Positions 2,146 through 24,562 of a stretch of 64,000 nucleotides of DNA are shown piece after piece. The notes below the pieces were generated by a model that worked only from the letters and a program-made list of their open reading frames with translations, had not been told where the DNA came from and did no database searches. The translations under genes were made by a program, and so were the position numbers. Source of the stretch: a virus; the IMG/VR virus record IMGVR_UViG_3300006028_000010, positions 1-64,000 of that record, one strand, 5' to 3'. Position 1 is the stretch's first letter, and every line of letters starts with the position of its first letter.

Positions 2146-3996
2146 ATGAGCGAGCGGCGGCGGTTCAACCGGACCGAACGGGCTGTCCTCTACATCGCCG
2201 CTGATGGACGTTGCTCCAACTGCGGCGCGGCACTTCAGTCCGGTTGGCATTCCGACCACATCACCCCCCATTCCGCAGGCGGCGGCACTGACGTCGTCAA
2301 CGGCCAGGCGCTGTGTCCCCCGTGCAACGTGCAGAAGGGAAACGTCATGATCGCAGAGCCGCGTGCTTGGCAAACCCGAGCTGCTGCCGCATTCGCAGCG
2401 CATGCTTACCGAGATTTCCTCGTCTGCGCTACACCAGGTGCCGGGAAAACACGCTTCGCTCTGGATCTAGCCGTTGAACAACGACGTATCGGTGCCGTGC
2501 AACGCGTCGTCGTGGTGGTACCCACGGACCCATTACGGCAACAGTGGGTGGATGCCGCTGCCGCTCGCGGCCTGGACCTCATGCCTGTAGCGCAACCAGA
2601 GGACTACGACAAAGACGGCTACCACGGCTGCGTTGTCACCTATGCCCAGTTAGCCGTCGGTGTTGGAGCTGAGTTAGTTCGCCGCTCGACCCGCACACCA
2701 ACCATCGCGATCCTCGACGAAATCCACCACGCCGGGGACAACGAGTCCTGGGGTGTCGCCCTGTCGCACGCTGTGGAGCACGCCACATACCGGCTCGCGC
2801 TGACGGGCACACCATGGCGGCGAAACCCCAGCAGTCCCATCCCGTTCGTTGGTTACGGCCCGGACGGACGTGTCATCGTTAACTCAAGCTACGAATACGG
2901 TGAGGCTGTCGCCGATGGTGTGTGCCGACGCGTTGAATTCCATGCTTACGACGGTGAGGCCCGTTGGGCTGACTGCGGCCGGATCATCGAAGCTGGGCTG
3001 GGCGCTGACTTGTCCGACCGTGACATGTCAGCAGCGCTTGATGCTGTTCTGGCACCTTCGCATAGGTGGATACCATCATTGCTTGACCAAGCGAACAGAG
3101 CTCTAACTGAGCTGCGCGAAGAGGTTCCCGATGCTGGCGGCTTGGTGGTTGCCCACGAGCAGTGGCTAGCGAAAGAATACGCGCGGCTCCTTCGCAATAT
3201 CACCGGCGAGGAACCCACCCTGGCCATCTCCGAGGATGATGACGCCAAGGACAACATCGACTCCTTCAGCCGCAACCACAATCGATGGCTGGTTGCTGTC
3301 AAGATGGTCTCCGAGGGTGTGGACATTCCCCGGCTGCTAGTGGGTGTGTATGCGGCGAAGGCTAAGACACCGTTGTTTTTCCGGCAGGTCGTCGGCCGGT
3401 TCGTCCGAACCAGGCCGGGGGAAGAGGTCAACGCTCGCCTGTTCATCCCTGCCGTCCCAGCGTTCATGGCTCACGCTCGTGCGATTGAGGAGGAGCTACG
3501 TCACCAACTTGACTTAGAGGCTGAGCGGGACGATAAGACAAGGGCGGAGGCCCGCGCAGGGCAGCAGCTGTTCGAGCTGCGTCAGCCGCTGTCCGCCTCG
3601 GAACCGGTGTTCTCGCAGGCGATTTATGGTGGTGAGGGCACAGCCGCTGACCGGTATTCTCAAGCCGAAGCGCAATGCCGAAAGCTTGGGTTGCCGGAGC
3701 GCTACGCGATCAATCTGGTTCCAGTGCTCGACCAGTTGCTAGCCGACCAGATGGCTCCTGCCTATGAAGTGACGGTCACGCCCGCGCCACCGAGGGAGCC
3801 GCGGGCGCGGCGTGAGAAGCTGTTACGAGCCGAGATCAAAACCCTCGTGGGTAAGGTCGCCTACCGCGCAGGGCACGATCCACAAGAAGTCAACACGCAA
3901 CTCCTCCGTAGTGGTTTCCCGGCCCGCGCCAAAGCCTCCATCGACGACCTAGAACGAACCCTCCGCTATCTAGCCGAGTGGCTGGCCGAGCTATGA
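2146..3996 (+). CDS. HNH nuclease fused to SF2 helicase
   Basis: 616 residues. N-terminal HNH domain: C23xxC26, HSDH at 35-38, HSAGG, and C57xxC60 zinc ligands. Then a superfamily 2 helicase: Walker A ATPGAGKT (95-102), motif II DEIHH (191-195), motif III TGTPWR (220-225), and motif VI QVVGRFVR in the second RecA lobe. The C-terminal 150 residues are helical and charged. Both domains keep their key residues, so the protein should bind, unwind or move on DNA and cut it. Codon use is a little less GC-biased than the neighbours. ATGA-coupled to 3993-4571. Could serve in DNA processing or act as a phage-borne restriction-like system. Confidence 0.85.
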   Translation: MSERRRFNRTERAVLYIAADGRCSNCGAALQSGWHSDHITPHSAGGGTDVVNGQALCPPCNVQKGNVMIAEPRAWQTRAAAAFAAHAYRDFLVCATPGAGKTRFALDLAVEQRRIGAVQRVVVVVPTDPLRQQWVDAAAARGLDLMPVAQPEDYDKDGYHGCVVTYAQLAVGVGAELVRRSTRTPTIAILDEIHHAGDNESWGVALSHAVEHATYRLALTGTPWRRNPSSPIPFVGYGPDGRVIVNSSYEYGEAVADGVCRRVEFHAYDGEARWADCGRIIEAGLGADLSDRDMSAALDAVLAPSHRWIPSLLDQANRALTELREEVPDAGGLVVAHEQWLAKEYARLLRNITGEEPTLAISEDDDAKDNIDSFSRNHNRWLVAVKMVSEGVDIPRLLVGVYAAKAKTPLFFRQVVGRFVRTRPGEEVNARLFIPAVPAFMAHARAIEEELRHQLDLEAERDDKTRAEARAGQQLFELRQPLSASEPVFSQAIYGGEGTAADRYSQAEAQCRKLGLPERYAINLVPVLDQLLADQMAPAYEVTVTPAPPREPRARREKLLRAEIKTLVGKVAYRAGHDPQEVNTQLLRSGFPARAKASIDDLERTLRYLAEWLAEL

Positions 3997-4878: not shown

Positions 4879-5250
4879 TTAACCAACAGCAGCTAGGCCA
4901 CTGCTGTGCGCGTGGTCGAACGCTCGCTGCACCTCAGTGGGGATACGCCCCCGATCACTAACATTCCACCCATTCTGCCGGGCCCATTCCCGCACCGCCT
5001 GGGTCTGCTCCCGCGACCGGCTAGGCGCACTCACCGCGCCGCTGCTCTTACGGCCACGCTTACCGGGGACGGACGTAGACATCCGCCGCGCGCTCTCCAC
5101 GAAACCCGCAACAGCGTCAGTGAACTCCTTAATGTTCTCACTGCTCAGATCGATCTCATACTGCGCGCCGTCCACCGCGAACGTGAACGTCCGCTCAGCC
5201 ACCGAACCGTCAATATCATCAATGAACTCACGGATCACCCGCTGCGCCAT
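4879..5250 (-). CDS. lsr2: Lsr2-family nucleoid-associated protein
   Basis: 123 residues. N-terminal dimerisation domain with the family start MAQRVIREFIDDIDGS and FAVDGAQYEIDLS (to about residue 50); a variable basic linker (KRGRKSSG); C-terminal DNA-binding domain with REWARQNGWNVSDRGRIP, including the AT-hook-like RGR at 100-102. Lsr2 is the H-NS analogue of actinobacteria: it coats AT-rich DNA and silences foreign genes. Carried on a mobile element it may compensate for or interfere with host Lsr2 silencing. Confidence 0.95.
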   Translation of the reverse strand: MAQRVIREFIDDIDGSVAERTFTFAVDGAQYEIDLSSENIKEFTDAVAGFVESARRMSTSVPGKRGRKSSGAVSAPSRSREQTQAVREWARQNGWNVSDRGRIPTEVQRAFDHAHSSGLAAVG

Positions 5251-5317: not shown

Positions 5318-6301
5318 CTAACCACCTAGGCCAGCCACCGGTGAACTTTGCTCCCGCTCAGCCCGCACCCGTTGCAAGTTCCCATCCCCATACAACCCCG
5401 GGTCAGACACGCGGAAAAACAACTCCGCCTCAGCATCCAACTGACCCTGCGTCTTCAACGACCCCGACCAACCACGCTCATCCTCCACGCTCGCCACCGC
5501 AGCGAACACCGCAGTAGCATCATCGCACCGCTTGTTCCGCGGATACCTCACACCCAACGGATCCGCGTCCTCAATGACCCGCACCAGTTTATTGATGAAC
5601 CAATGCGGCCCGCTGGATTCCAAGATCCGCAACACCCCGTCCCAATCACCGAGCTGGAACAGATCCGTGTACCTCGCCGCACCATCCGTCAAAACCGCGA
5701 GCCGCTCAACCTCACCAAGAGGCATCTGCCCAACCGTGGCCTGGTAAGCCGCAGCCGGGTCCGCCGCGGCGATCCAATACCCCCCAGGTGTGTTCCGGGC
5801 GGCCAGCTCAGCATGCTTCATGGGGACCAACGCCGCCGCTTTCTCGAGGCTACCGATGGGATACCGGTCAACTTCTCGGCGTTCCGCGGCGGCTGACGCG
5901 CTGATCCGCTGATCGCTGACCGGCCACACCCGCCCATCAACGGCGCCGATGACGATCGTGACGTCCCCCAGCACCAGATATTGCATGTCGCCGCCAACGA
6001 CGCGGACGATTCCCACGGCCGCTGATGGGGTGCCCGGGTGGGTCAGGTCACACGTCCCTGCGTGGAGTGTGGCGACGTGAGCGATGGCGTCGTGTAAGGC
6101 GCCGGTTAGGGGCTGGTTGGTGGTGTGGGTGAGGATCGCGGCGCCGAGTTGGCGGGTGTACCAGGCGGCGCCGTGGGCGCAGCCGGTTTCGGTGCGGATC
6201 GTGGCACCGTCGAGGACCACGATCAGGTCTGGTGTGGCGGCGTACCAGTCCTCGGTGGGGACGGACGGGTCACCGGGGGCAGTGGCTGCGGTGACGTTCA
6301 C
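5318..6301 (-). CDS. PP2C-like phosphatase-fold protein
   Basis: 327 residues from a GTG with AAAGGAG 9 bases upstream; the longer frame to 6637 only overlaps the next gene. VVLDGA near residue 40 and the late DDATAVFA match the metal-binding motifs of PP2C Ser/Thr phosphatases, and ETGCAHGAAWYTRQLG matches an actinomycete subgroup of this fold. Likely dephosphorylates proteins or acts as a pseudo-phosphatase regulator. Target unknown. Confidence 0.65.
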   Translation of the reverse strand: MNVTAATAPGDPSVPTEDWYAATPDLIVVLDGATIRTETGCAHGAAWYTRQLGAAILTHTTNQPLTGALHDAIAHVATLHAGTCDLTHPGTPSAAVGIVRVVGGDMQYLVLGDVTIVIGAVDGRVWPVSDQRISASAAAERREVDRYPIGSLEKAAALVPMKHAELAARNTPGGYWIAAADPAAAYQATVGQMPLGEVERLAVLTDGAARYTDLFQLGDWDGVLRILESSGPHWFINKLVRVIEDADPLGVRYPRNKRCDDATAVFAAVASVEDERGWSGSLKTQGQLDAEAELFFRVSDPGLYGDGNLQRVRAEREQSSPVAGLGG

Positions 6302-6354
6302 GACACAGGACTCCTTTAGGTGCGGAGGGAAGTGTTTGGCTGTCGGCATTATTG

Positions 6355-7239
6355 TCATGCGTCGCGCTGCTCGCGGAGCATTCTGACCACCGTCCTCGGA
6401 GGGTGCTCGTCCATTAAGGCCCGTGCCTGCGCTCGTTCGCTGGTGGTGAAGCCGCCGTATTCCTGTTCGATCCGGTTGAGTTCTCGGGCCATGAAGTAGT
6501 CGCCGATGCTGAGGTCGGGGTCGTGTTGATTGTGGGCTGTGACCTGTTCCGGGTCCGTTAGCCAGGACGTGGGTGTGGTCGGCGTGCCGCTCGCGGCCCT
6601 TGGTGCTGGAGGGTGGTCGGCGTCGTCTCGCGCGCACGTTACGTTAGGTGACGCTACGTCATCAACTTGCGTCCTCGTCTCCGGATGAACGGCACGCAAG
6701 CCAAAATGTGATCTTGGGTCTGGTTCTTCTTTTGGGTTTGGTTGCTTTAGTAGGTCTGGTTCTTGATGCGTCAGATCTGACGCATGGTCATGCGTCTCTG
6801 GTGACGCTTGGTGCTGACCTGCGAAAATAGGCTGTTCTTGCACGTCGAGGCCATGCGTCTCTGGTGACGCTTGGGTGGCGTGCTCGGCCTCGACGGTTGA
6901 TGAGTTGTCGGAAGGGTTCGGCGAGAGGTTCGCGAAGGTGTCGCGGGGGTCGTCCAGCGGGAGCCGGTAGAGATTCCCGCCGTAGTGCCCGTCGGCCTTA
7001 CGTGGGCGCACCACGATCAGCGCGTCGGCGACTCTTAGCTTCCGCAGTGCGCGTTGGATCGTGCTCCTTGAACAGCTCAGGTCTTTCGCGAGGCGTTCCT
7101 CGCTGGGGAACGCGTGACGCTTAGCGTTGGCGTACCGCCACGCGATGTATGTGTAGACCCGTAACGCGACAGGATCGGTGACACGCTCTATAACCCAGCA
7201 GGGCACCGCAGCAAACGGGGTCTGGATAGGGGCTGACAC
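6355..7239 (-). CDS. Winged-helix replication initiator or regulator
   Basis: 294 residues from a GTG preceded by AGAGGA. Residues 1-100 form a winged helix: RVYTYIAWRYANAKRHAFPSEERLAKDLSCSRSTIQRALRKL is a typical HTH, followed by a DNA-binding wing (GGNLYRLPL). The middle is low-complexity and carries two near-identical peptides (QASPETH) encoded by 23-bp DNA repeats. The C-terminus is a helical domain (ARELNRIEQEYGGFTTSERAQ). This layout fits replication initiators of actinomycete phages and plasmids; a transcription regulator is the alternative. Confidence 0.65.
   Translation of the reverse strand: MSAPIQTPFAAVPCWVIERVTDPVALRVYTYIAWRYANAKRHAFPSEERLAKDLSCSRSTIQRALRKLRVADALIVVRPRKADGHYGGNLYRLPLDDPRDTFANLSPNPSDNSSTVEAEHATQASPETHGLDVQEQPIFAGQHQASPETHDHASDLTHQEPDLLKQPNPKEEPDPRSHFGLRAVHPETRTQVDDVASPNVTCARDDADHPPAPRAASGTPTTPTSWLTDPEQVTAHNQHDPDLSIGDYFMARELNRIEQEYGGFTTSERAQARALMDEHPPRTVVRMLREQRDA
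6766..6874. repeat. Palindrome and direct repeats in the initiator gene (candidate origin)
   Basis: A perfect 20-base palindrome ATGCGTCAGATCTGACGCAT (6766-6785) is followed by two identical 23-base direct repeats (6789-6811 and 6852-6874), each starting CATGCGTC. The core ATGCGTC/GACGCAT therefore occurs four times within about 110 bases. Iterons inside an initiator gene are a known origin layout (lambda O, many plasmids). Assignment as origin is inference. Confidence 0.5.
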
Positions 7240-8179: not shown

Positions 8180-8278
8180 GACTGGGAAGTGTAACCCATG
8201 TGTTGATCGCCCTCGCCGTCGCTGGCCGTAAGACAGGGCTTGCGGATCCACATCCCATGGATTTATGCTATGGAGAGT

Positions 8279-8298
8279 GCGCGGGAAACGGCCCGCGC
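8279..8298. promoter_or_regulatory. Leader hairpin ahead of whiB operon
   Basis: Perfect 7-base stem GCGCGGG / CCCGCGC with a 6-base loop in the divergent region 8180-8360. It would lie in the 5' leader of the whiB transcript. Role unknown. Confidence 0.35.
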
Positions 8299-8360
8299 AA
8301 TTGCCGAGAAAGGCCGACGTGCGGCGTATTCAGCGCGCCCAAAATGGGACGGAACCCGTA

Positions 8361-8645
8361 ATGTTCACGTTCACGGCACCCGACTGGCGTCAGCACAGTG
8401 CGTGCCGTGACGTTGATCCCGACATTTTCCACGGCCCCGCAGATTCACCCGACGGGCACCCCCTGTACGCGTGGGAGAAGGCGGCGCTGACCGTGTGCGC
8501 CCGCTGCCCCGTCGCCCCGGCGTGTCTCGCTGAGGCCCTGACCTACCCGGCCGGGGAGCAGTACGGCGTCGTGGGTGGCTTAACCGCCAGCCAGCGGCGA
8601 CGGCTGCCGTGCCACACCAACCGCCACCACAAGGCGGCGGCATGA
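8361..8645 (+). CDS. WhiB-like iron-sulfur regulator
   Basis: 94 residues from ATG 8361 (upstream in-frame residues lack homology). Four cluster ligands C15, C46, C49 and C55, with CARCPVAPAC, then the GVVGGLT turn (69-75) and a basic C-terminus. WhiB-like proteins bind a 4Fe-4S cluster and sigma factor region 4 to alter transcription. As first gene of the long rightward operon it probably regulates the element, the host, or both. Confidence 0.93.
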   Translation: MFTFTAPDWRQHSACRDVDPDIFHGPADSPDGHPLYAWEKAALTVCARCPVAPACLAEALTYPAGEQYGVVGGLTASQRRRLPCHTNRHHKAAA

Positions 8646-9317: not shown

Positions 9318-9478
9318 CCGCCGCCTACGAGCACGACGAGCGTGGCTTGTACCCGGCGGATGATCGGGTGGAAACGTTCGAAGACGTCGTGTATTTCGAC
9401 CGCTACTCGCCGGACCAAACCAGCCCCTACGCCTACTACATCGAACCACGCGACCGGTGGGACGAGGTGACCCGATGA
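9314..9478 (+). CDS. Small acidic hypothetical protein
   Basis: 54 residues, Tyr- and Asp-rich (FDRYSPDQTSPYAYYIEPRD), with GTGA and ATGA overlaps on its two sides. No family recognised. Confidence 0.5.
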   Translation: MTAAYEHDERGLYPADDRVETFEDVVYFDRYSPDQTSPYAYYIEPRDRWDEVTR

Positions 9479-9987
9479 AAAACAACATCGACGTGCCGGA
9501 CCTCTCCCCGACCGGTTGCACGGTCCTCTTCAGCTACCTACCGGACACCGACGACAGCTTCCCCGTCGCCGTCAAATTAGTTTGGGATCCCTGTGATCCT
9601 CTCGCGGTGCGGCTGGGGTTCGCCCACGGAAACTGGTGGGCGGTGGGTCGCGACCTGCTGGAAGAGGGGTTGTCAACGGACGACGTCGCCGGGTTGGGTG
9701 ATGTCCGGATTTACCCGGACAGGGTTTTCGGCGATTCGGTGATTATTGAGTTCGACAGTCCCGACGGGTGGGCGGTTTTCCGCGCGCCTCGGGACCAGTT
9801 GACCGAGTTCCTGGCGGCAACAGCCCGGCCTGGGGTAGATCCGATGGACGCGTTGGACACGTGGCTTGAGCGGGAGGTACCCGCAGCGAGCCCCCACGGT
9901 TCCGTACCGAGCCTAAACGTTACTGGGATCGGCATAGGAATCGCTTTGATGCTTGCCGGTGTGACGCTTTGGGTGTTCCGTGACTGA
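9475..9987 (+). CDS. SsgA-like protein with C-terminal membrane anchor
   Basis: 170 residues. Residues 20-130 follow the SsgA-family pattern closely: LVWDPCDPLAVRLGF, VGRDLLEEGL, LGDVRIYP, DGWAVFRAPRDQLTEFLAAT. SsgA-like proteins control septum placement and cell-wall events during sporulation, partly by recruiting FtsZ, and are confined to morphologically complex actinomycetes. Unlike the usual family members this one ends in a hydrophobic helix (GIGIGIALMLAGVTLWVF), which would tether it to the membrane. It lies upstream of the transfer-like genes, suggesting it links element transfer or lysis to septa. Confidence 0.85.
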   Translation: MKNNIDVPDLSPTGCTVLFSYLPDTDDSFPVAVKLVWDPCDPLAVRLGFAHGNWWAVGRDLLEEGLSTDDVAGLGDVRIYPDRVFGDSVIIEFDSPDGWAVFRAPRDQLTEFLAATARPGVDPMDALDTWLEREVPAASPHGSVPSLNVTGIGIGIALMLAGVTLWVFRD

Positions 9988-10604: not shown

Positions 10605-10774
10605 GCACATACCGGTGCGATATGGGCTGGTCAGATACCGGCGGCTTTGAGCACGGGTGCCGAAACGAGGCGACCACTCAATTTGGTCTCGCTAGCCTGT
10701 GCGAACCCTGCGCTGATGACCATCGGGCGATTGCGCAGAAGCGAGAACAAGAGCAACGGGAGATGGGCCTGTGA
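10601..10774 (+). CDS. Zinc-ribbon-like small protein
   Basis: 57 residues with C6, C20, C34 and C37 (YRCDMGW, HGCRNEA, LCEPCADDH), spacing that fits a small zinc site. Coupled by ATGA and GTGA overlaps. Function unknown. Confidence 0.6.
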   Translation: MSTYRCDMGWSDTGGFEHGCRNEATTQFGLASLCEPCADDHRAIAQKREQEQREMGL

Positions 10775-12660
10775 AACTGTTCGATAATATACGTGCGCGC
10801 CACGAACTGAACACCGCGTTCGGGCAGCTGGACATTTACTGGCATGAGGTTCGCGGCACCGACCGGGACACCCCCGAGGTCAGGGCCGCGGTCATGCAAC
10901 GCTGCGACGAGGCGGTACGCAGCGCGCCAACGTCTTGGGCGCTGGACAGTGTGCACGATCACCTCGCCGACCCGAACGATGAACGGCGCAGTATGGAACA
11001 CGACGAATACATCTGCGCCTGGGAGAAACTACAACTCGAACTAGCCGAAGAAGCGATCGAGGATGAGCTAGACGAAACGGATCCGCTTCTCCGCGAGGAC
11101 GAAGAGGCTGCGTACGAAAAGCTCGCGCCCGCGCAGGATGCGTTTGATCAGCGGTGGCCGTACGCGAAAGAAGCCGACGAGGCAAACCGCCGCGGGTGGG
11201 ACCCCGTTGAGCTCAACAACCGCGAAGGCGACGCGGAACTAGGGACCGATGCGCCGGTTGATGAACTCCCAGCGGACGAGCCGGAGGTTGCTGAAGAGTC
11301 AGTCACGGCAGCGCCCACGCAGTACCTCGGGTACGCCGATGGTGAGCTGGTGCGGGACGTACGGTCCGGTGTTACGGGTCGTGTCCGGGTCCGTGACGAC
11401 GAAGAAATCGGCCGGTATGCCGAGGTCCGGTGGGACGGCGTAGCCGTCAGCGACCAGCTCGAGGTCGCTATCGACAACGGCCCGGAACGCGAGCCGGATC
11501 CTTCGGTTGGTGTACCGGACACTGAACTGGGCCACGAGCTAGACGACGTGGCTGGCGTCGCTGGCGCTAATGAAGCCGAACTTGACGATGACAGGTCTGC
11601 CGAATACCGCGATGACATCAACACCGTAGTTGAAGGGCTCCGTGCTCGCGGTCGCCATGAGGAAGCCCAGATATGGCGCGACGGCGCCGATGAGTTCCTG
11701 GCTGGTCGCACCGGTAGCCATAACTGGCACTCGGCTAAGGAGCTGCTGCACGAGTTCGATCAGGATCCGGCGCCGACGTCGACCACGCCCGAGTTGGGGA
11801 TTGACGACGCGGAGCTCGTGGTCGAACCCGACGGGCTGGCGGAGCCGGAACCAACCACCGACGAAGCAACCGAGCCCACACCCGCCGCGCCCGTGGCGCT
11901 TGAGGTTGCTGAGCCGGAGCTGGTGGCCAGCGAGCAGGAACCAACCGGGCCGGCCAGTCAGGTGGCGCTGACCGAACCCGAGCTGGTGGCTGGTGAGCAA
12001 GAGCTACCCGAACTGGGTCAGCCTGTCGCCGTTGCAACGGCCGAACCAGAACTCGTCGCCAACGAACAGGAACTAGCCGCCCCCACTGCTGACGCTGAAC
12101 TAGAAGCCGACGCCACGCCCCCGAGCGGCGCTGAGGTTGTCGCTGAGCAGGAACAGTCCACCCTGACGGTTGCCGAGCCGGAGCTGACGGTTGACGAGCC
12201 CGGCGCCCCGGATGATGAGGTCAAAACCGACCCCGAGCCGGAGCCGGAGCCCGGGCCGGAGCAGCCGTCGTCGTGGTGGCAATCCAAGACCGCGACCGCC
12301 AAGACCTGGCTAGACAACAAAGCCGCCGTGGTCCGGGGCCGGATACAAGACAAAGCCCAATTCGCCAAGGCGTGGATCAGTGAGCTACGCAGCGGGCGGC
12401 ACCGCCAGTGCCACGGCGCGTGGGAAGAATCCAGCCCGTTCGGCGGTGTCAGCGAATGCACCATCCAAGTCGCGAAAAACGAGTTCGGCGTGTCCCTGGA
12501 TGAGATCCAACGAACCTTCGGGCACGGGCTTGTGAACGACGTTCTTTACCAAAACGACGTTGAAGGAAAGTCGTACCGCCACATCTCGGACTTCATGGAG
12601 GACACCCTATTGAAGGGCCGTCGCCGGGAGTTAGACGGCAGCAAGGAAATCGAATTGTGA
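10771..12660 (+). CDS. Large acidic repeat protein upstream of the TraG-like ATPase
   Basis: 629 residues. Residues 1-130 are charged and helical; about 180-240 resemble a small beta-barrel (VRDVRSGVTGRVRVRDDEEI); about 375-500 is an acidic low-complexity region with repeated peptides of the type AEPELVAxEQEL; the last 120 residues are basic then globular. GTGA-coupled to the TraG-like ATPase, so a role in the transfer complex, such as a spacer or recruitment protein, is plausible. No named family recognised. Confidence 0.65.
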   Translation: MKLFDNIRARHELNTAFGQLDIYWHEVRGTDRDTPEVRAAVMQRCDEAVRSAPTSWALDSVHDHLADPNDERRSMEHDEYICAWEKLQLELAEEAIEDELDETDPLLREDEEAAYEKLAPAQDAFDQRWPYAKEADEANRRGWDPVELNNREGDAELGTDAPVDELPADEPEVAEESVTAAPTQYLGYADGELVRDVRSGVTGRVRVRDDEEIGRYAEVRWDGVAVSDQLEVAIDNGPEREPDPSVGVPDTELGHELDDVAGVAGANEAELDDDRSAEYRDDINTVVEGLRARGRHEEAQIWRDGADEFLAGRTGSHNWHSAKELLHEFDQDPAPTSTTPELGIDDAELVVEPDGLAEPEPTTDEATEPTPAAPVALEVAEPELVASEQEPTGPASQVALTEPELVAGEQELPELGQPVAVATAEPELVANEQELAAPTADAELEADATPPSGAEVVAEQEQSTLTVAEPELTVDEPGAPDDEVKTDPEPEPEPGPEQPSSWWQSKTATAKTWLDNKAAVVRGRIQDKAQFAKAWISELRSGRHRQCHGAWEESSPFGGVSECTIQVAKNEFGVSLDEIQRTFGHGLVNDVLYQNDVEGKSYRHISDFMEDTLLKGRRRELDGSKEIEL

Positions 12661-14330
12661 CTAAACACAAACAGATAGCGGTCGGCGCTGGGGTGGTGGC
12701 CTGCGTCGCCCTGGTCGGGTGGTTCACCGCCCCGGTCCTCACCGTCATCGTGAGCGCGCTGCTCACCCTCACCACCGTGTACGGCGCCTGGTGGCGGCGC
12801 CGTCGCGCTGGTTCCGCCGCGCTGGTGGCCCGGTGGACGGACAAAGCGAAGAAACACCACGGGGTCGCGAACTACTGGACGATCCTGCGGGTCTCCTCCT
12901 GGTGGTCGCTACGACGCCGGGCCCGCGTCCTACGCCCCTCCCTGCGTGGCCAAACGTGGTGGGCCAGATGGCGACAAACCCCCATCACCCAACTCGGCAC
13001 CCGCGTCATCCGCTCCGGGTGGCTATGGGTCATGTCCAGCGTGGAAGAGCACAGCATCACACTCGGAGGACCCCGCCAGGGCAAGAGTGGACGCCTCGCC
13101 AACACGATCCTCGACGCCCCCGGCGCGGTGCTCGTCACGTCGACTGGCAGCGACCTCGTGCGCAACACCGCTGATCTACGCGCGAAGCTAGGCCCGGTTC
13201 ACATCTTCAACCCATCCAACATCGGCGGCTTAGCATCCACCCTCGGTTTCAACATTCTCGGTGGCTGCGAAAACCCCCGGACCGCCAGCGAACGAGCCGC
13301 TGACCTTCTCTCAGCCACACCCCTAGCGCAGGGCCATAAAGAGCAAGAGTGGGTTGAGCGCGCCACCGAAGCGTTGTCCGCGTTCATGCACGCCGCCGCG
13401 ATCGGCGGGGCCACCATGCACCACGTCCAACGCTGGGTCGCCGACCCCGATGCGGCGATCGAACCGGTACTCGGCATCCTGCGGAACTCGCCGGAACCCG
13501 CGATCGCGCACCAGGCGTTGCAGTTCTTCAAACTCGGCCGCCCACAAAGCTCCGTGTGTATGACGATCACTCCCGCGCTTCGGTGGCTCGCCGACCCGGT
13601 CACCGTCGCCACCGTCACCACCGGTCACTTCGACGTCGCACAATTCCTCGAGCAGCGGGGCACGATCTACCTCCTCGCGGAGAAAGACGGCCCCATCGCC
13701 CCGCTGATCACCGCGTTCGCTGGTCACATCACCCGAACCGCGCGACGTCTCGCCGATCAGCAACCATTTGAGCGGCTCGAGCCGGCATTCACGATGGTCC
13801 CCGACGAGGCCGTTTCCATCTGCCCACTGCCCATCCCATCGTGGAGCGCCGATCTAGGCAAACGGAACATCACCATGCACATCGGCGCCCAATCATTTTC
13901 CCAACTTCAGGACCGCTGGGGCGAGAAAGGCGCGGGCACGTTACTGACGAACTGCGCCACGATCATGGTGTTCGGTGGCACGAAAGACCCCGCAGGGCTC
14001 AACGCGTTCTCCACCCTGGCTGGTGGCCTGTTGACCCCCGCGCAGATTCAGCAGTTGCCGCCGTTGCATGCGGTGGTGTTCCGCAACGGCATGCTCCCGG
14101 TCGTGGGGCGCCCGCAGATGGTGTGGCAACGCCCGGACCACAAAGCAGCGGCCAGCAAAGCCGTGTGGGACACGCGGCTCGCACGAATCAGCGCCATCTG
14201 CCGCGCACCATTCCGGCTAGCCCTCACACCACGCCGCACCCCGGTCCGCCAGCCCATGGCCGCGCTACCCCCCGGTGGGGCCGCGATGCGGGAACACGCG
14301 CAACTCCTCGAACAACACGGACTCAAATAA
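12657..14330 (+). CDS. TraG/VirD4-type DNA-transfer ATPase
   Basis: 557 residues. N-terminal membrane segments (about 8-46), then a P-loop domain with Walker A GGPRQGKSG (137-145) and sequence typical of the TraG/TraM-recognition group (FNPSNIGGLASTLGFN, LLSATPLAQGHKEQEWVERATEALSA). Type IV coupling proteins pump DNA or protein substrates toward a secretion channel. No VirB-type channel genes are visible here, so it may work with the FtsK-like pump or with a host system. Confidence 0.8.
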   Translation: MTKHKQIAVGAGVVACVALVGWFTAPVLTVIVSALLTLTTVYGAWWRRRRAGSAALVARWTDKAKKHHGVANYWTILRVSSWWSLRRRARVLRPSLRGQTWWARWRQTPITQLGTRVIRSGWLWVMSSVEEHSITLGGPRQGKSGRLANTILDAPGAVLVTSTGSDLVRNTADLRAKLGPVHIFNPSNIGGLASTLGFNILGGCENPRTASERAADLLSATPLAQGHKEQEWVERATEALSAFMHAAAIGGATMHHVQRWVADPDAAIEPVLGILRNSPEPAIAHQALQFFKLGRPQSSVCMTITPALRWLADPVTVATVTTGHFDVAQFLEQRGTIYLLAEKDGPIAPLITAFAGHITRTARRLADQQPFERLEPAFTMVPDEAVSICPLPIPSWSADLGKRNITMHIGAQSFSQLQDRWGEKGAGTLLTNCATIMVFGGTKDPAGLNAFSTLAGGLLTPAQIQQLPPLHAVVFRNGMLPVVGRPQMVWQRPDHKAAASKAVWDTRLARISAICRAPFRLALTPRRTPVRQPMAALPPGGAAMREHAQLLEQHGLK

Positions 14331-14657: not shown

Positions 14658-14788
14658 TCCACGGTCAGGGCAAAAACACTGAGCAGCTCGCCCGGATGCA
14701 TGAACTCATGACCACAAAAGTCAAACTCGTAAGGGTTGATCCCCCCGCGCTCGGACCCAATGTCACCGACCCTAAGCGCGGGCTATGA
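14654..14788 (+). CDS. Small hypothetical protein
   Basis: 44 residues from a GTG, with GTGA and ATGA overlaps on the two sides. Sequence MIHGQGKNTEQLARMHELMT, then a short tail. No family recognised. Confidence 0.5.
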   Translation: MIHGQGKNTEQLARMHELMTTKVKLVRVDPPALGPNVTDPKRGL

Positions 14789-15654
14789 CCGCAGCCGTCC
14801 ACGAACGCACCCCGGCCGCTATCGACACGGCCGGGGTCTCACACGTTGTCCTCACCGGACTATGGGCCGACGCGGCGCTCGTCATGGCCGCATCCGCCTG
14901 GAACGGCGGCCGAGCAGCCCAAGCCCTCGGCGACCCCTTCTGGTGGGGCTTCATGCTCGGCATAGCCGTCGACGTCGGCCTCGCCACCGCCCTCGCCGGC
15001 GACCGGTCCCTCTACCAACTCGGACGACGAGAACCATGGGGCCGCGCCGTCCGCATCGTCACCGCCCTCATGTCCCTCGGCCTCAACTGCGCCTACCCAA
15101 TCTGGGCTGGGCAAGTTGGGCTCGTCCTGTTCCACGCGTTCCTACCAGTCCTGCTTGTCCTGCTCTCCGAGTACGCGCAAAGCCTCACGCTGCACTTCAA
15201 CACAATCGCGGCGGAACAGGTAGCGGCGGTGAAAGCCGACTGGGACGCGAACCACACCGCCGCTCAAGCAGCAGCCGATAGCGCCGCTGAGGCCGCGCGG
15301 ATACGCCAAGAACGCGACGACGCCCGCGTGGAAACCGCCCGACTCCAACGGGAAATAACCCGGCTCAGTGCTGACCTCGAATCGCAGATCACCGCCACAC
15401 GAACCGCCCAGACACAAACCCCACCACCACCTGCAACACCCACCCAACCACCCACCACCCGGCCAACACACAAACAACCCGCAGACCGCGAAACCAGACG
15501 GCAATGGGTCCGAGACCAACGCGCCCACGGAACAACACCCACCGGCGCCGACGTCGACAAACGATTCGGACCACCCCGCAACGGCGCCGCCGTCATCCGA
15601 GAAGTCCTCGCAGAGGAGAAGAACAGGTTGCACGTGGTTGGAGGAAAACGGTGA
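14785..15654 (+). CDS. DUF2637/SpdB-like membrane protein
   Basis: 289 residues. Four hydrophobic segments in the first 140 residues (VLTGLWADAALVMAAS, PFWWGFMLGIAVDVGLATAL, VRIVTALMSLGLNC, VLFHAFLPVLLVLL), then a coiled coil (IRQERDDARVETARLQREI), a Thr/Pro-rich linker and a basic C-terminus resembling a small DNA-binding domain. This DUF2637 layout is common next to tra genes of Streptomyces plasmids, where Spd proteins spread plasmid DNA between hyphal compartments. Location directly upstream of the FtsK/TraB-like gene supports that role. Confidence 0.75.
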   Translation: MTAAVHERTPAAIDTAGVSHVVLTGLWADAALVMAASAWNGGRAAQALGDPFWWGFMLGIAVDVGLATALAGDRSLYQLGRREPWGRAVRIVTALMSLGLNCAYPIWAGQVGLVLFHAFLPVLLVLLSEYAQSLTLHFNTIAAEQVAAVKADWDANHTAAQAAADSAAEAARIRQERDDARVETARLQREITRLSADLESQITATRTAQTQTPPPPATPTQPPTTRPTHKQPADRETRRQWVRDQRAHGTTPTGADVDKRFGPPRNGAAVIREVLAEEKNRLHVVGGKR

Positions 15655-17837
15655 CAGACGGTCCCGGCAAGGGTGCTGACATTCTGCGGCTCCCCGTGCG
15701 CAAAGACGCGGGGGGTGACTCGTCACCAGCTGAACCATCAACCTCTGATCTTGACCTGAGGGACACCAGCTTCGAGATCGCCCTCGACGATGCACCCATC
15801 GGCCGACCGGTACCGGTGGATTCGGAACCAAGCAAAGATCCGGTATTCAAACCGGTCATCCCAGAGCACCTACAGACCTGGGTTGGTGTCAAGAGGACCG
15901 CGGTCCGGTTCACGGGCCGGCAGTGGCACAGGGTCAAGGTGCATTCGGTTCGCTCACCGGCGTATGCGTTCTGGGCGGTCATCTACGCGTTTGTGGGCGC
16001 ATACAAAGCCGCCAAGGCGCTGGGCCAGTGGTGTTTTCTGGCCGAAGCTGCCCCGCTGCGCAAACACGCCGCGCAGAACAATCACCACAAGGAATACCTA
16101 GAGCTGCACAAGACCGGGCAAGCCACGGCCTCAGGGCGCGTCAAGCGAACATTATTCGCGGTCGTGTGCCTCATCGCCGCGCTCGCCGCGTTGTTTTTCC
16201 TCGCGCCGTGGTGGATCTGGATTGCCATCAGCGTCTGCCTCATCCTCCTGTTGGCCCACTATGGGAGACCCGCTGACAGGCCAATCGTCAACGCGGCGGT
16301 GGTGACACCACAGTTCCGTAAGCTCAACGCCGATACCGTGCTCCGCGCCTACTACGCCGCCGGGCTGGGCAACGCGGACAAGCCGGACCAGCAAATCAAG
16401 TTCGGATCCACGATGAGCCGCAACCACAACAACACCGGCTCAAAAGTCCTCGTGTGGCTACCCTACGGGAAAGGGTTCGACGACGCCCTCAAAAACAAAG
16501 GAGCCATCGCCAGTGGCCTGGATGTGGCCACCTCACAGGTGTACCTCACCAAACACAAAGACTCGCACCGCGGGCATTGGCTGTTCGTGACTGACGTGGA
16601 CCCGTTGTCCATCCCCGCTGGGCGCACACCACTACTGGACGGGAAGCGGCGGGACATTTGGCGGCCCGCGCCCCTCGGATTAGATGAGCACGCTAACAAG
16701 GTTGCGTTCCCGCTCGTGTTCTGGTCCATGTTGTTCGGGGCGCCACCGAGGAAGGGTAAGAGCTACTCGGCGCGGCTCCTAGCCCTCTACTCCGCGCTAG
16801 ACCCCTATGTGCGGCTGTCGGTGTTCGACGGTAAAGGCTCACCCGACTGGCGCATGTTCGCCGCTGTCGCACACACCTACGGGTTCGGTCTCCTACCGGA
16901 CCGGAAGCAGGGTGACCCGGTGCAGAACCTGCTCGCCACTCTCCGGTCCGGGAAACGCGAGATCCAGGAACGGAACCAGCGCCTATCCGACCTACCGACC
17001 AATGTGTGCCCAGAAGGGAAACTGACTCGGGAGATCGCCCGGAACAAGGCATACAAGATGCCCGTGTGGGTGCTCGTGTTCGACGAGATCCAAGAGTTCC
17101 TGACCCTGGAAGACAAAGCTGTCGCACTGGAGATCGCCCGACTGCTGGTGTCCATCATCAAAGTCGGCCCATCGGTGGGTGTCATCCCCATCACCGCGAC
17201 ACAACGACCAAGCGGTATCGGCTCCGAAGGGAACGTGCAAAAGTTGTTCACCGACTTCCGCGACAACCACCTCATCCGATTCGCGCTCAAGAGCCCGTCG
17301 TGGCAGTTCTCTGACCTTGTACTCGGGGCCGGTGCACACACAGAGGGATACGACGCGGCCACGCTCCCCGTCGGGGACGAATACCGGGGGGTCGGGATCC
17401 TCTACAACGCCCCCGTCGACAACTGCACCGTCCGCTGTTACCTCGCCGATAATGAGGACGCGGAGAAGATCCTGCTTGCCGCGCGGAGGCATCGTGAGGC
17501 GTGTGGAACTTTGGATGGGATGGCCGCCGGTGAAGCTGTTGCGATCCAGCCCCGCGATCCGCTGGCGGACACGCTTGACGTTTTCCAGCTGGGGGAGAAC
17601 TGGCTTTCCTGGACTGAGATCGCGTCGCGTTTAGCGGAGCAGTTACCGGAGCAGTACGCGCAGATAACAGGCCGCGCGATCGGCGACACGTTACGCGGGA
17701 TGAACCTTGGTATTGAGAACTCTGACGGACGCGTACCCAAGTGCGACGAGGTGCCCTCCGGTGTCACGTCCGGCGTCAAGCGGGCAGTGCTGGAGCGGGC
17801 CATAGCGCGACGGGACCGCGAGGAGGTGCGGCCGTGA
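15651..17837 (+). CDS. FtsK/TraB-like DNA translocase
   Basis: 728 residues from a GTG with GGAGG 6 bases upstream. Membrane region about 166-202; motor domain with Walker A GAPPRKGKS (363-371), Walker B VWVLVFDE (472-479) and a later ATQRPSG; C-terminal winged-helix-like region (EIASRLAEQLPEQYAQITGRAIGDTLR). In Streptomyces plasmids and AICEs, such FtsK-like TraB/TraSA proteins alone move double-stranded DNA between mycelia. The TraB hexamer recognises short repeats (clt) on the plasmid; see the ACCTAC repeats just downstream. Confidence 0.85.
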   Translation: MTDGPGKGADILRLPVRKDAGGDSSPAEPSTSDLDLRDTSFEIALDDAPIGRPVPVDSEPSKDPVFKPVIPEHLQTWVGVKRTAVRFTGRQWHRVKVHSVRSPAYAFWAVIYAFVGAYKAAKALGQWCFLAEAAPLRKHAAQNNHHKEYLELHKTGQATASGRVKRTLFAVVCLIAALAALFFLAPWWIWIAISVCLILLLAHYGRPADRPIVNAAVVTPQFRKLNADTVLRAYYAAGLGNADKPDQQIKFGSTMSRNHNNTGSKVLVWLPYGKGFDDALKNKGAIASGLDVATSQVYLTKHKDSHRGHWLFVTDVDPLSIPAGRTPLLDGKRRDIWRPAPLGLDEHANKVAFPLVFWSMLFGAPPRKGKSYSARLLALYSALDPYVRLSVFDGKGSPDWRMFAAVAHTYGFGLLPDRKQGDPVQNLLATLRSGKREIQERNQRLSDLPTNVCPEGKLTREIARNKAYKMPVWVLVFDEIQEFLTLEDKAVALEIARLLVSIIKVGPSVGVIPITATQRPSGIGSEGNVQKLFTDFRDNHLIRFALKSPSWQFSDLVLGAGAHTEGYDAATLPVGDEYRGVGILYNAPVDNCTVRCYLADNEDAEKILLAARRHREACGTLDGMAAGEAVAIQPRDPLADTLDVFQLGENWLSWTEIASRLAEQLPEQYAQITGRAIGDTLRGMNLGIENSDGRVPKCDEVPSGVTSGVKRAVLERAIARRDREEVRP

Positions 17838-18112: not shown

Positions 18113-18294
18113 CGCGCGACGACGGGACCGGGCCGCGTGGTTTGACGCGTCGCCAGTTCCTTGAAGACGTGCTCGACGTGATGAGTGACGCAGACCGGAT
18201 CTACCACCTTGACGCGGACGGAAACGAGGTTGTTGTCGCCACCCGGCTCGATATTCTCACGATGCTCGCGGCTGAAATGGGTGATGGCTCATGA
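18109..18294 (+). CDS. Small hypothetical protein
   Basis: 61 residues from a GTG overlapping the previous stop. Contains LTRRQFLEDVLDVMSDADRI and a C-terminal helix (RLDILTMLAAEM). An upstream in-frame ATG at 18076 is possible. Unknown function. Confidence 0.5.
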   Translation: MTRDDGTGPRGLTRRQFLEDVLDVMSDADRIYHLDADGNEVVVATRLDILTMLAAEMGDGS

Positions 18295-18566
18295 ACATGC
18301 CTATGACGGTCGCGGTTGTCGCTGTCGTGTTCTTCTGGCTCGGTGGGCGGCGTGACGTTGCGCTGGAGATAGCCGCGCTGGCGGCGGTTGTGTACTTCGC
18401 TCAGGTGTTTGTGTTCCACCTGATTACATGCAGCCGGTGTGGCGGTAAAGGGAAGCTGGAGAATCCGTTCGGGGCGGGGCATCGGCCGTGTAAGAAGTGT
18501 GGGCGTAAGGGTGAGCATGTGCGGTGGGGGCGTCGTATGTGGGATAAACGAGTGACAGGAGATTGA
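18291..18566 (+). CDS. Membrane protein with zinc ribbon
   Basis: 91 residues. Two N-terminal hydrophobic helices (residues 4-18 and 24-44), then a DnaJ-like zinc knuckle CSRCGGKGK and CKKCGRKG. The ribbon would face the cytoplasm. Function unknown; coupled within the transfer operon. Confidence 0.6.
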   Translation: MNMPMTVAVVAVVFFWLGGRRDVALEIAALAAVVYFAQVFVFHLITCSRCGGKGKLENPFGAGHRPCKKCGRKGEHVRWGRRMWDKRVTGD

Positions 18567-20235: not shown

Positions 20236-20555
20236 GCAATCCATCAGACCCGTTGCTGTACGGAGCCGACGCGGACGCATGGGGCGCGTCGGCTGGCACT
20301 CCAGCGTCAACGCTGCCGAAGAACTACACAGAATGGCTAGCCGAGGGCCGGGTCGAGAACGGCGCTGAGATGCCGCAGCGGGGCAAGCTCCAACCTAAAG
20401 TCGTGTGGGTATGCAAAGACTGTTTAGAACGCAGCCATGCCGTCTGCGGCAATCGTGGATGCATCTTTGAGGACTGGCCGATTGGGAACGTTCCTGACCT
20501 GTTCGATTTTCCGAAACCAACCGGGCTTGACTGGGGCGAGGACGCCCACCGATGA
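20232..20555 (+). CDS. Cys-rich hypothetical protein
   Basis: 107 residues with CKDCLERSHAVCGNRGC in the centre, a likely metal site. ATGA-coupled on both sides. No family recognised. Confidence 0.55.
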   Translation: MSNPSDPLLYGADADAWGASAGTPASTLPKNYTEWLAEGRVENGAEMPQRGKLQPKVVWVCKDCLERSHAVCGNRGCIFEDWPIGNVPDLFDFPKPTGLDWGEDAHR

Positions 20556-20977
20556 CGACGAACATCGCGGTAAATGACAGCATCATCCTAACTGCTACAC
20601 CAACACTACTCGATCCAACCGCAGACAAGCGGGTCCTACCTGATGTCACGTGGGCACCTCGAATTCTGATCTACCTCACGTGGTCTTCCGGGAAGCGGGA
20701 TGCGGCACACTTGCAGCTCGTGCCTACACCATCACTCGCTCAGTGGCTCCCCGACAGCGTGCTCAACCACAAAGGCTGGAATCTTGACCTGGCGCTGCTG
20801 ACCGATGGTCTAGACGCCCCCGCCGGTGATGACGACGTGATGGTCAGCCCTTCACGTCGTAAAGATCTCATTGAAATCATCCTCGATTCGGGACGTGATC
20901 AGATCGGTCTGCGCTTCCGGAGAGCGGCGCTCGTTGAGTTCGTCGCGAGGGTGCACGAACACTCCGTTCAGTCATAA
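20552..20977 (+). CDS. Hypothetical protein
   Basis: 141 residues, mixed alpha/beta, no recognised domain. Last gene before a short hairpin; codon use less GC-biased than neighbours. Confidence 0.6.
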   Translation: MTTNIAVNDSIILTATPTLLDPTADKRVLPDVTWAPRILIYLTWSSGKRDAAHLQLVPTPSLAQWLPDSVLNHKGWNLDLALLTDGLDAPAGDDDVMVSPSRRKDLIEIILDSGRDQIGLRFRRAALVEFVARVHEHSVQS

Positions 20978-21074: not shown

Positions 21075-21427
21075 GTTGCGTACTGACGTTCCTCCACGCT
21101 CGCCTCGACGAAGACGAGCAACGCGCCCGGGCCGAAGCTGTCCTGCGCGACGGTGACCCATACTTCGTGAACGAGGCCAGCAACTTTGAGCGCTGCTTCA
21201 CCCCCCAACGGGCGCTGGCCGAGGTGGAAGCTAAACGGGAAATCCTCAAGCTGCATCGGCCGGGGCGACCCATCTATGAAGCCGAGGACTCGACCCGTCG
21301 CACATGCTGGTCGTGTGGTGTGGATGACGGCTGGTATGACGTGCCCGCGCCGTGCGACACGTTGAAAGCCTTAGCGCTGCCCTACGCGGACCATCCTGAC
21401 TACGACCCCGCGTGGAGCGTTCAGTGA
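21071..21427 (+). CDS. DUF6221-like protein
   Basis: 118 residues. N-terminal FLHARLDEDEQRARAE, then LAEVEAKREILKLH, CWSCG and a C-terminal LKALALPYADHPDYDPAW, the pattern of the DUF6221 group of actinomycetes and their phages. Function unknown. Confidence 0.8.
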   Translation: MSCVLTFLHARLDEDEQRARAEAVLRDGDPYFVNEASNFERCFTPQRALAEVEAKREILKLHRPGRPIYEAEDSTRRTCWSCGVDDGWYDVPAPCDTLKALALPYADHPDYDPAWSVQ

Positions 21428-22500
21428 CCGCTGAACTCGTTCCCGCTGCCGCAGCCACCGAAGATGAGCGGTGGCTCACCGAACTCAAACTCGTCGGCCA
21501 ATGGCTCCTCGAACACTCCGGTAACACACTCGCCGCCTACTCCAGCAGCATCGGCTGGCCCTACCGCACCAACGGCACCTGGCGCGGCTACCAAAGCGCC
21601 CGCAACGGCGTCACCTGGCTAGGCTGGTGCCACACCAACGGCGTCTACCTACTCGACGCGAAACGGATCCACATCCTCGCCTGGATCGAAGCGGTCAATG
21701 CCAGCCGGCACCCCGACAGCGGGGAACCACTCGCAAAACGGAGCCGCGCGCAGCTGGTGTCCACCGCATCAAGCTTCTACACCTGGGCCATGCACGAAGG
21801 GCACACCGAATCCAACCCCGTCGCGCTGATCAACCGCCGCAAGAAACAACTCAACGTCAGCCACGACCCTTCCGCGAGCCGGTCCCTGTCAGCGACAGAA
21901 TCCCAAGCGATGATCGCCGCAGCGGACAACGACCCCGTCCAGTTCACCCGACCACGCACCGCCGCGATCATCGCCCTACTGTTCTGCTGCGGGCCACGCG
22001 TCGGAGAGGTGTGCAACGCCAAGCTCAGCGACATGCGCGTGCAAGATGGTAGGCGCGTCCTCCGCACCGTAGCCAAAGGCGGGAAGGAACTCCTCTTCGC
22101 CTTACCGCCACAGGTATGCACGAGACTTGACGCCTACCTGGCGACGCGAGAAGACATCTCACGGCTACCAGCCCGCCGCGGTGAGGGCTCCGGGTCCTCA
22201 ATACCTCTGATCGCCACCTCAACAGGTAAACCGCTAGGTCGGGGGGAGGTGCGTACGCTGGTCAAACGCATCGCCCGGTTCGCGGGTCTGGATGACCCAC
22301 AGAGCGTTTACCCGCACGTGGCGAGGCACACGTACATCACCGAAGCCCGACGGCTGGGCTATTCTGGGGATGTGATCCAGCACTCGGTTGGTCACGCCCA
22401 CATTGAGCAAACCGACAAGTACGGCAAGCACATCATCAACATCGAGAAGTCCCCGGCGTACGGGGTAGCGGAAGCATTCGCGCCCGAGAGGCAGTCGTGA
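21424..22500 (+). CDS. Tyrosine recombinase (second integrase)
   Basis: 358 residues from a GTG overlapping the previous stop. N-terminal SAM-like core-binding domain, then a catalytic domain with the first Arg in CCGPRVGEVC, a Lys in AKGGKE, HVARHTYIT (H-x-x-R), VGHAHIEQ and the nucleophile in TDKYGK. All expected residues are present. No tRNA-like attachment core is seen next to it, so it may act on a distant site, as a dimer resolvase, or as the integrase of an AICE-like module. It differs from the phage integrase at 38189. Confidence 0.9.
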   Translation: MTAELVPAAAATEDERWLTELKLVGQWLLEHSGNTLAAYSSSIGWPYRTNGTWRGYQSARNGVTWLGWCHTNGVYLLDAKRIHILAWIEAVNASRHPDSGEPLAKRSRAQLVSTASSFYTWAMHEGHTESNPVALINRRKKQLNVSHDPSASRSLSATESQAMIAAADNDPVQFTRPRTAAIIALLFCCGPRVGEVCNAKLSDMRVQDGRRVLRTVAKGGKELLFALPPQVCTRLDAYLATREDISRLPARRGEGSGSSIPLIATSTGKPLGRGEVRTLVKRIARFAGLDDPQSVYPHVARHTYITEARRLGYSGDVIQHSVGHAHIEQTDKYGKHIINIEKSPAYGVAEAFAPERQS

Positions 22501-23024: not shown

Positions 23025-23648
23025 TCATGCTGCTGCTTGTGTGTTGAGCGCGCGTATCGCTGTGGCCAACTCGCTGATGGTGCCGCCCTGGGTCAGGTAC
23101 TCAATCGGCTGCGTCGTAACCGATTCGCGGAGACAAGCCACGCCGTGATGCTGCGCGGTTTTCACCGCGCCCTCACTGATCCCCAGAATCTTCGCGGTCT
23201 GGGGGATCGACAGGCCGTGTATGAGACGCAGCCGCAGGACCTCAGCCTGCCGGGGTGTTGCTAGGCGCGTGATGCGCCGGCTGATTTCACCAGCGGCGAG
23301 AGCGGCGAGGATACGGTCCACGACGATGCTGTCCGGGCCCGGTTCGTCGTCGGCGGTGTCGGTGATCGCCGCTACGGGTGTTTCACGCCGCGCCGCTGCG
23401 GCCTTGTGGTGGTCGTACAGGACGTTCCGGGCCATCACCCGCAGCCAGCCACCCGGGTTCCGCCCATCGAACCGGTCGGCGTATCTCAGGGCGCGTTCGA
23501 ACGTGGCCGCGGTCAAATCCTCAGCGAAAGCGGGGTCCTGGGTTTTCCTGGTAAGCCACCCCAGGATCCACGGGTGGTGTTCGGTGTACATGTCAGCGAC
23601 CACCCGGGCCGGGTCAGGGCGCATCCGGGGTGCCCCATTCCCACACAC
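23025..23648 (-). CDS. ECF-type sigma factor
   Basis: 207 residues. Region 2 is seen in DLTAATFERALRYADRF and PGGWLRVMARNVLYDH; region 4 HTH in PRQAEVLRLRLIHGLSIPQT with AKILGISEGAVKTA. No anti-sigma gene is adjacent. Near the end of the early operon, so it may redirect RNA polymerase to late or transfer promoters, or alter host development. A shorter start at 23624 is possible. Confidence 0.85.
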   Translation of the reverse strand: MCGNGAPRMRPDPARVVADMYTEHHPWILGWLTRKTQDPAFAEDLTAATFERALRYADRFDGRNPGGWLRVMARNVLYDHHKAAAARRETPVAAITDTADDEPGPDSIVVDRILAALAAGEISRRITRLATPRQAEVLRLRLIHGLSIPQTAKILGISEGAVKTAQHHGVACLRESVTTQPIEYLTQGGTISELATAIRALNTQAAA

Positions 23649-23907
23649 GGCCTTCCACAGGTCTTACCGAACCGGGATGGACCTCAGCTGGGTGACTGAC
23701 CAGATGCGGGGTCGGTCGGTAACGACACACCGGGTTCGGTGCCACGGTCCGCCAATCCCGGTGCACATTCCAGCAAGCCTGCTGGTGCCGTTCAAGCTCG
23801 GTCCGCCACCACCACGACCCATCCAAATACACCGGGCCCCCGCAGAGCACCGCCAGCTCCCCTTTAGCGGGAATGTCCCTCGCCCAACCATCCGGTTTAC
23901 GTTTCAT
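23614..23907 (-). CDS. Trp-rich hypothetical protein
   Basis: 97 residues (YLDGSWWWRTELERHQQACW), start ATG overlapping the SsgA-like stop. Overlaps the sigma factor start by 35 bases. No family recognised. Confidence 0.55.
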   Translation of the reverse strand: MKRKPDGWARDIPAKGELAVLCGGPVYLDGSWWWRTELERHQQACWNVHRDWRTVAPNPVCRYRPTPHLVSHPAEVHPGSVRPVEGRVWEWGTPDAP

Positions 23908-24326
23908 CGTGTTTCCTCGAGGATCCGGGTGAGTGCCTCGTCAAGCGCGGCGCGGGTGCGGCCGTGTTCAACACAGGCCGGGTCCACGCAAGCCGGGTCC
24001 ACGCACGGCGGGTTCACGACCATCGTGGCGCCCAGGAACGCGGACGCCACCGCAACCGGGCAGGACACCCGCACAGCCTCCCCAGGGGGCCGCAGAACAA
24101 CCCACAAGCGGCTACCAGCGGCCAGCAGCCGGACGTCGCCTTCCCCGACCAGCGTGTGGGTTTGGAGAGCGGCGGTGAGTAAGTCCCGGGCGAACACCCA
24201 CTCAACCTGCCCCCCGCTGGGGGTGTGGAAGGTGAGGGTGACCGCGTGCGGGTCCGTGGTGGCGTAGGCCCAGCGGGCGTTGACCGGCTCCCCCCTAGTG
24301 GTGCGGAACACCACACCCGAACTCAC
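23904..24326 (-). CDS. SsgA-like protein 2
   Basis: 140 residues from GTG 24326, which forms a GTGA overlap with the preceding gene; longer starts would overlap that gene. Clear SsgA-family signature: YATTDPHAVTLTFHTPSG, VEWVFARDLLTAAL, GEGDVRLLA, and the C-terminal LDEALTRILEE that closely matches SsgA. A tandem duplicated peptide (VDPAC twice) sits before the C-terminal helix. SsgA-like proteins steer septation and peptidoglycan remodelling in sporulating actinomycetes. No membrane anchor, unlike the copy at 9475. Confidence 0.9.
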   Translation of the reverse strand: MSSGVVFRTTRGEPVNARWAYATTDPHAVTLTFHTPSGGQVEWVFARDLLTAALQTHTLVGEGDVRLLAAGSRLWVVLRPPGEAVRVSCPVAVASAFLGATMVVNPPCVDPACVDPACVEHGRTRAALDEALTRILEETR

Positions 24327-24562
24327 CTCCACGGCGCGCCCGTCCGGTATTCGATGACGCACACGCAGTCTTCTGTTCGCCTGGATTGATCCGCCGGACA
24401 GTCCGGGCGATGCGGTTCCCCATAGCCCCGTTTCCGGCAGACCGGATCCGCGCACGCTAACGCCGCTTCGCGGGTGCAGAACGTACACTCACGCGGGTAC
24501 CACTCGTCCATCACGCCGCCGATCCGTCCATTGAATACGTCGGACTTGTTCATAGGGTTCAT
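24323..24562 (-). CDS. Cys-rich small protein
   Basis: 79 residues from ATG 24562 overlapping the DnaB stop. Eight Cys in pairs (CTFCTREAALACADPVC, then CPAD and CVCV) suggest a zinc-binding protein. Unknown function. Confidence 0.6.
   Translation of the reverse strand: MNPMNKSDVFNGRIGGVMDEWYPRECTFCTREAALACADPVCRKRGYGEPHRPDCPADQSRRTEDCVCVIEYRTGAPWR

Follow-up and report, generated by a model that had tools for sequence, protein, structure and literature searches.

The viral genome analysed here encodes a genuine SsgA-like protein (SALP) with a predicted SsgB-type fold and a hydrophobic C-terminal tail that probably anchors it in the membrane, and the gene of this protein, SALP-1, lies in one same-strand run with genes for VirD4-like, Spd-like and FtsK-like proteins. 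In sporulating actinomycetes, SALPs exert positive control over where septa are placed; the passage of mobile DNA across hyphal cross-walls is a long-standing question. We tentatively read SALP-1, with somewhat less than even confidence, as a septum-acting accessory of the element's DNA-spreading or maintenance module that docks or shapes septa for the pump, in which case the virus may influence the position, or even the formation, of cross-walls in its host. The stretch of DNA analysed (the window) spans 64,000 nucleotides, positions 1 to 64,000 of the 100,329-bp IMG/VR virus record IMGVR_UViG_3300006028_000010.

An SsgA-like septation protein had been proposed at this locus in the initial annotation. 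The open reading frame is present, its ATG start being stronger than the alternative GTG at 9457, and the Pfam and phmmer matches agree on its identity. PF04686 (SsgA) matches residues 31–118 (E = 1.1e-18; 67.3 bits; Pfam cut-off, 25), and phmmer links the protein to the Streptomyces SsgA/SsgB-type structure 6slc (2e-12) and to T. fusca SsgB, 3cm1 (6e-6). The domain is followed by a C-terminal helix (residues 123–134), a linker and the hydrophobic tail (residues 147–168). Structure prediction against SsgB, which the initial annotation had suggested as a check, returned an SsgB-like fold rather than one unlike SsgA: in an AlphaFold model built from an alignment of viral SALPs, the core has pLDDT values mostly above 90, and all eight Foldseek matches in the PDB at E ≤ 0.001 are SsgB/SsgA entries, the best being 6slc with the S. 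coelicolor SsgB fold (E = 1.3e-10, TM 0.79 by target), alongside 6suj (~1e-10) and 3cm1 (7e-9). Assignment to SsgD specifically was rejected, as the NF052496 equivalog model scores 45.3 bits against a cut-off of 185.

Mutation of Y35, V37, L57 or L97 in SsgB abolishes sporulation (PMC8061694). The residues aligned to these positions in SALP-1 are L, V, L and F; not all are identical, and the hydrophobic character of the patch is thus kept. The VPxGxE motif of the α2–α3 loop is missing from SALP-1, which carries ATARPGVDP instead and is about three residues shorter there. In SsgB this loop governs septum placement, but the SALP family as a whole is not defined by it.

Beyond the conserved C-terminal helix and linker, roughly 20 residues of SALP-1 form a hydrophobic stretch. 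Its segment VTGIGIGIALMLAGVTLWV has a mean Kyte–Doolittle hydropathy of 2.06 over 19 residues, the summed biological-scale ΔG of the tail is about 0, and equal hydrophobicity over the last 30 residues arose in 141 of 20,000 whole-protein shuffles. Among 25 distinct SALPs from phages, viral contigs and plasmids, a set that makes the comparison one of mobile-element SALPs, SALP-1 stands alone in the hydrophobicity of its C-terminus (the runner-up reaches 1.15, at an insertion cost of 9.5). Segments within the cores of other SALPs come close to the tail in hydropathy (up to 1.94–1.96); the insertion cost is lowest in the tail itself (~0 versus at least 1.3 for the other SALP segments tested). Polar residues close the tail, as they do in tail anchors; its lower GC3 (0.58 versus 0.78), by contrast, would suit an eroded end. 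On balance, it is a probable tail anchor. Of the transmembrane helix claimed in the initial annotation, the hydrophobic tail therefore stands, whereas AlphaFold leaves residues 147–170 disordered (pLDDT ~50 or below, no helix), so that transmembrane status is only likely. No tail-bearing relative was found, the tail being known from one sequence, and a single-sequence search of viral and genome contigs returned no close relative of SALP-1; degenerate DNA patterns took the place of alignments A1 and A2, whose diversity made them unsuitable as queries.

SALP-1 is one of three SALP genes on the 100,329-bp record (Table), the other two of which go unmentioned in the initial annotation. It shares only about 25% identity with each of SALP-2 and SALP-3, and the three genes are therefore not recent copies of one another.

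Table. Positions, in window coordinates, of the SALP genes and of the left-arm genes surrounding SALP-1.
Feature	Position	Strand	Remarks
Lsr2-type nucleoid protein	4879..5250	-	PF11774 5.7e-23, PF23359 6.5e-16; homologs in G1, G2
PP2C-like phosphatase	5318..6637	-	41% identity over 287 aa to PhiNon1 protein at equivalent position
WhiB-like regulator	8265..8645	+	PF02467 6e-17; homologs in G1, G2, G015, G016
SALP-1	9475..9987	+	SsgA-like protein, 170 aa, ATG start
Putative transmembrane tail of SALP-1	9913..9984	+	LNVTGIGIGIALMLAGVTLWVFRD; codons 147-170
Acidic protein upstream of VirD4	10771..12660	+	part conserved in G015
VirD4/TraG-type coupling ATPase	12657..14330	+	PF02534 8e-18, PF12696 6e-16
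Spd-like membrane protein	14785..15654	+	homologs adjoin FtsK genes in G1, G2, G015
FtsK/TraB-like DNA pump	15504..17837	+	31% identity over 633 columns to FtsK of pPaSha2; start probably GTG 15651
Small membrane protein with Cys motif	18291..18566	+	third module gene common to G1, G2; weak, E 5e-4 and 0.01
SALP-2	20552..20977	+	141 aa, divergent, without hydrophobic tail; PF04686 E = 1.2e-8
XerC/D-like tyrosine recombinase	21412..22500	+	
ECF-type sigma factor	23025..23648	-	homolog in G015
SALP-3	23904..24488	-	third SsgA-like protein, up to 194 aa; adjoins sigma factor and DnaB

The placement of SALP-1 upstream of DNA-pump genes, as initially annotated, was borne out, the VirD4/TraG-like and FtsK-like genes both lying downstream. 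SALP-1 starts within the stop of the preceding gene (4-bp overlap), and the WhiB gene lies about 0.8 kb upstream; on another contig (IMGVR_UViG_3300037760_000114), a phage SALP gene sits immediately beside a WhiB gene. Membership of DUF2637 was considered for the membrane protein preceding the FtsK-like gene and discarded, as neither the window protein nor those of G1 or G015 gave a Pfam match; the designation “Spd-like” therefore refers to position and homology to its counterparts only. Scans for promoters and terminators yielded no signal beyond chance expectation.

The carrier, roughly 100 kb long, is a temperate siphophage or a phage-plasmid of spore-forming actinomycetes. Capsid, terminase, portal, tape measure and minor tail protein genes are found on the record together with genes for an endolysin, a DnaB helicase and two tyrosine recombinases, and virion genes thus share one record with a plasmid-type FtsK/Spd arm, as in plasmid-phages of the PhiNon1/pZL12 type. 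The initial annotation correctly called the element mobile; more precisely, it is the genome of a phage or phage-plasmid and not a simple conjugative element. VirD4 is present; VirB4 and relaxase were not recognised among the larger ORFs scanned, nor ParA/ParB among the carrier proteins scanned, and a search of genome contigs with VirD4 for host assignment gave no match. Gene order on the single linear record is permuted relative to the related contig G1, which suggests a circular or permuted genome.

Several further features of the genome were recorded. The SPP1-type portal gene (77484–80240 of the record; L006:2485–5241, minus strand) is interrupted by a LAGLIDADG homing-endonuclease-like insertion, probably an intein, and an insertion of this type also matches inside the DnaB gene of the phage contig G015. 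Direct repeats at 49494–50000 and 53845–54350 of the window, 4,351 bp apart and with identical stretches of 20–44 bases, flank a large minus-strand ORF (50191–53181) and may reflect duplication of a cassette on both sides of this fibre-like gene. Glycosyltransferase, epimerase and methyltransferase genes in or beside the virion region (72325–73359 and 86342–91000 of the record), conserved in G1, may serve glycan decoration of the virion or host. In the left arm, window positions 2146–3996 encode a fusion of an HNH endonuclease domain with a ResIII/DEAD-type helicase.

Three related contigs bear on whether the left arm belongs to the phage. The capsid proteins of G1 (95.8 kb) and G2 (74.3 kb) are 78–79% identical to that of the carrier, and both contigs carry Lsr2, WhiB and the three-gene run of Spd-like, FtsK-like and small Cys proteins. 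Their FtsK-like proteins correspond to that of the window by position and motif, the pairwise score not being significant, and no SALP was detected in either contig, though the pump module is present. The phage contig G015 (104 kb) encodes a VirD4-like protein with 60% identity over 531 aa to that of the window and retains part of the gene upstream of it. It further carries a SALP with 39% identity to SALP-1, an FtsK-like gene and genes for DnaB and a sigma factor. With genes of the arm present on all three contigs, it is very probable that the left pump arm is part of the phage. An alternative, in which the left 22 kb would be an integrative conjugative element of its own that lies by chance beside a prophage in one host chromosome, was first considered on account of the recombinase at 21.4 kb, which ends the arm at a point where the strand switches. 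This reading was dropped on the synteny with G1, G2 and G015 and is now very improbable: the pump module, Lsr2 and WhiB lie within the G1 and G2 contigs, the VirD4 gene recurs on a phage contig, and neither a tRNA nor a convincing att-type repeat turned up.

The SALP–pump association extends beyond the window. Among the seven elements found to carry both a SALP and a recognisable pump, five (the window, PhiNon1, pSROS01, pNon2 and G015) have the SALP gene and an FtsK-type pump gene about 6 kb or less apart; the count is a lead rather than a test because sampling was non-random. In G016 and the large Streptomyces plasmid NZ_CP108601 the two lie far apart, the phages Dagobah and Comrade have SALPs without a nearby pump, and G015 has its SALP close to FtsK yet some 37 kb away from VirD4. 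The link between SALP and DNA pump made in the initial annotation is strengthened by the four other elements but is not general. That a septum-placing protein recurs beside FtsK-type pumps on plasmids and phages offers a direct, testable connection between septation and DNA spread.

Two roles had been envisaged for SALP-1, docking of the transfer machinery at septa and blocking of spore septation, and the data are compatible with both. Our tentative preference for docking builds on the fold, the unique tail, the same-strand pump run, the recurrent SALP–pump proximity and the retained patch, and on what is known of the host systems: TraB, on which Streptomyces conjugation relies, is an FtsK homolog, and passage of plasmids through septal cross-walls is attributed to Spd proteins (PMC4170104), while SsgB recruits FtsZ to place septa but, lacking a membrane domain, needs SepG to reach the membrane (PMC4852450). 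We infer that the globular domain of SALP-1 would bind the host septation machinery (SsgB, SsgA, FtsZ or partners) and that the tail would fix the protein in the membrane, the task of SepG for host SsgB. So placed at the septum, SALP-1 may bring the FtsK-type pump and Spd-like proteins there, or build septa suiting them, and the element's DNA would then move between compartments of the hypha and persist during growth and sporulation. A wider proposal, that the DNA-spreading modules of actinomycete plasmids and plasmid-phages regularly include SALPs, which dock FtsK-type pumps at septa so that a phage genome spreads without virions, with SALP-1's own tail bypassing SepG, is speculative and on balance unlikely. 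Docking itself is weakened by the elements in which SALP and pump are separated (G016, NZ_CP108601), the SALP has no pump nearby (Dagobah, Comrade) or no SALP was detected (G1, G2), by the SALP–VirD4 distance in G015, by a tail known from one sequence and not modelled as a helix, and by the altered loop of SALP-1.

The main rival fits nearly as well, although we regard it as rather unlikely: a membrane-held SsgB/SsgA mimic would act as a decoy, titrating FtsZ, SsgA or SepG, so that the mycelium stays multinucleate and vegetative during phage replication. An altered α2–α3 loop combined with a retained hydrophobic patch would suit such a decoy, as would the neighbouring developmental regulators (WhiB, Lsr2 and a sigma factor). 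A precedent is phage TM4, whose WhiB is reported to hinder host septation (PMC7650747), and the SALPs of phages with no pump nearby need a role independent of transfer. The SALP-1 gene, however, lies in the plasmid/transfer arm and not beside virion genes, and on pSROS01 and pNon2, where no virion genes are annotated, SALPs stand in operon-like pump runs. SALP-1 could instead be an ordinary soluble phage SALP whose tail is eroded or disordered. The low pLDDT, the comparable hydropathy of other SALP cores, the lower GC3 and the lack of a tail-bearing relative favour this, but the tail is set off from the fold by a linker, costs less to insert than any other SALP segment tested and ends in polar residues, and we think a soluble protein quite unlikely. 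Promotion of septation or sporulation, by which the element would be packed into spores and inherited, serving maintenance rather than transfer, appears improbable. It would accord with the positive regulation of septation by SsgB (PMC8061694), with three SALPs on one element and with the differentiation role that the PhiNon1 authors proposed for such elements (PMC5431353), yet the co-located genes are pumps and not partition genes.

SALPs on phages and plasmid-phages have already been reported, in Streptomyces phage Dagobah (PMC7650747) and in Nonomuraea PhiNon1 (PMC5431353). The membrane tail, the presence of three SALPs on one phage and the recurrence of SALPs near FtsK-type pumps look new, as we found no report of any of these in the open-access literature. 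With Streptomyces SsgB, the archetype of the family, SALP-1 shares the domain, fold, C-terminal helix and hydrophobic patch, and differs in its extra linker and tail, its shortened α2–α3 loop and its location on a phage. The closest parallel to the carrier in layout is the Nonomuraea gerenzanensis plasmid-phage PhiNon1 (NZ_LT559120.1), likewise a phage genome with a plasmid-type arm, whose order of PP2C (minus strand), SsgA (plus strand), DUF2637 and FtsK-like genes equals the carrier's PP2C, SsgA, membrane protein and FtsK; PhiNon1 is smaller (59 kb versus ~100 kb), has a single SALP without hydrophobic tail, and no VirD4 homolog was detected in it. On the Streptosporangiaceae plasmids pSROS01 and pNon2, the SsgA gene is part of the run toward the FtsK-type pump, between BldC and HATPase genes, and the encoded SALPs are tailless. 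Streptomyces phages of the Dagobah and Comrade type also encode SALPs, in Comrade with Lsr2 nearby, but only one each, without hydrophobic tail and not beside a DNA pump. SepG (YlmG), finally, supplies the membrane attachment that SsgB lacks, as the SALP-1 tail would do; SepG is a separate protein to which we claim no sequence relation, whereas SALP-1 would unite anchor and SALP in one chain and, if so, would be a natural tool for probing the role of SepG for SsgB.
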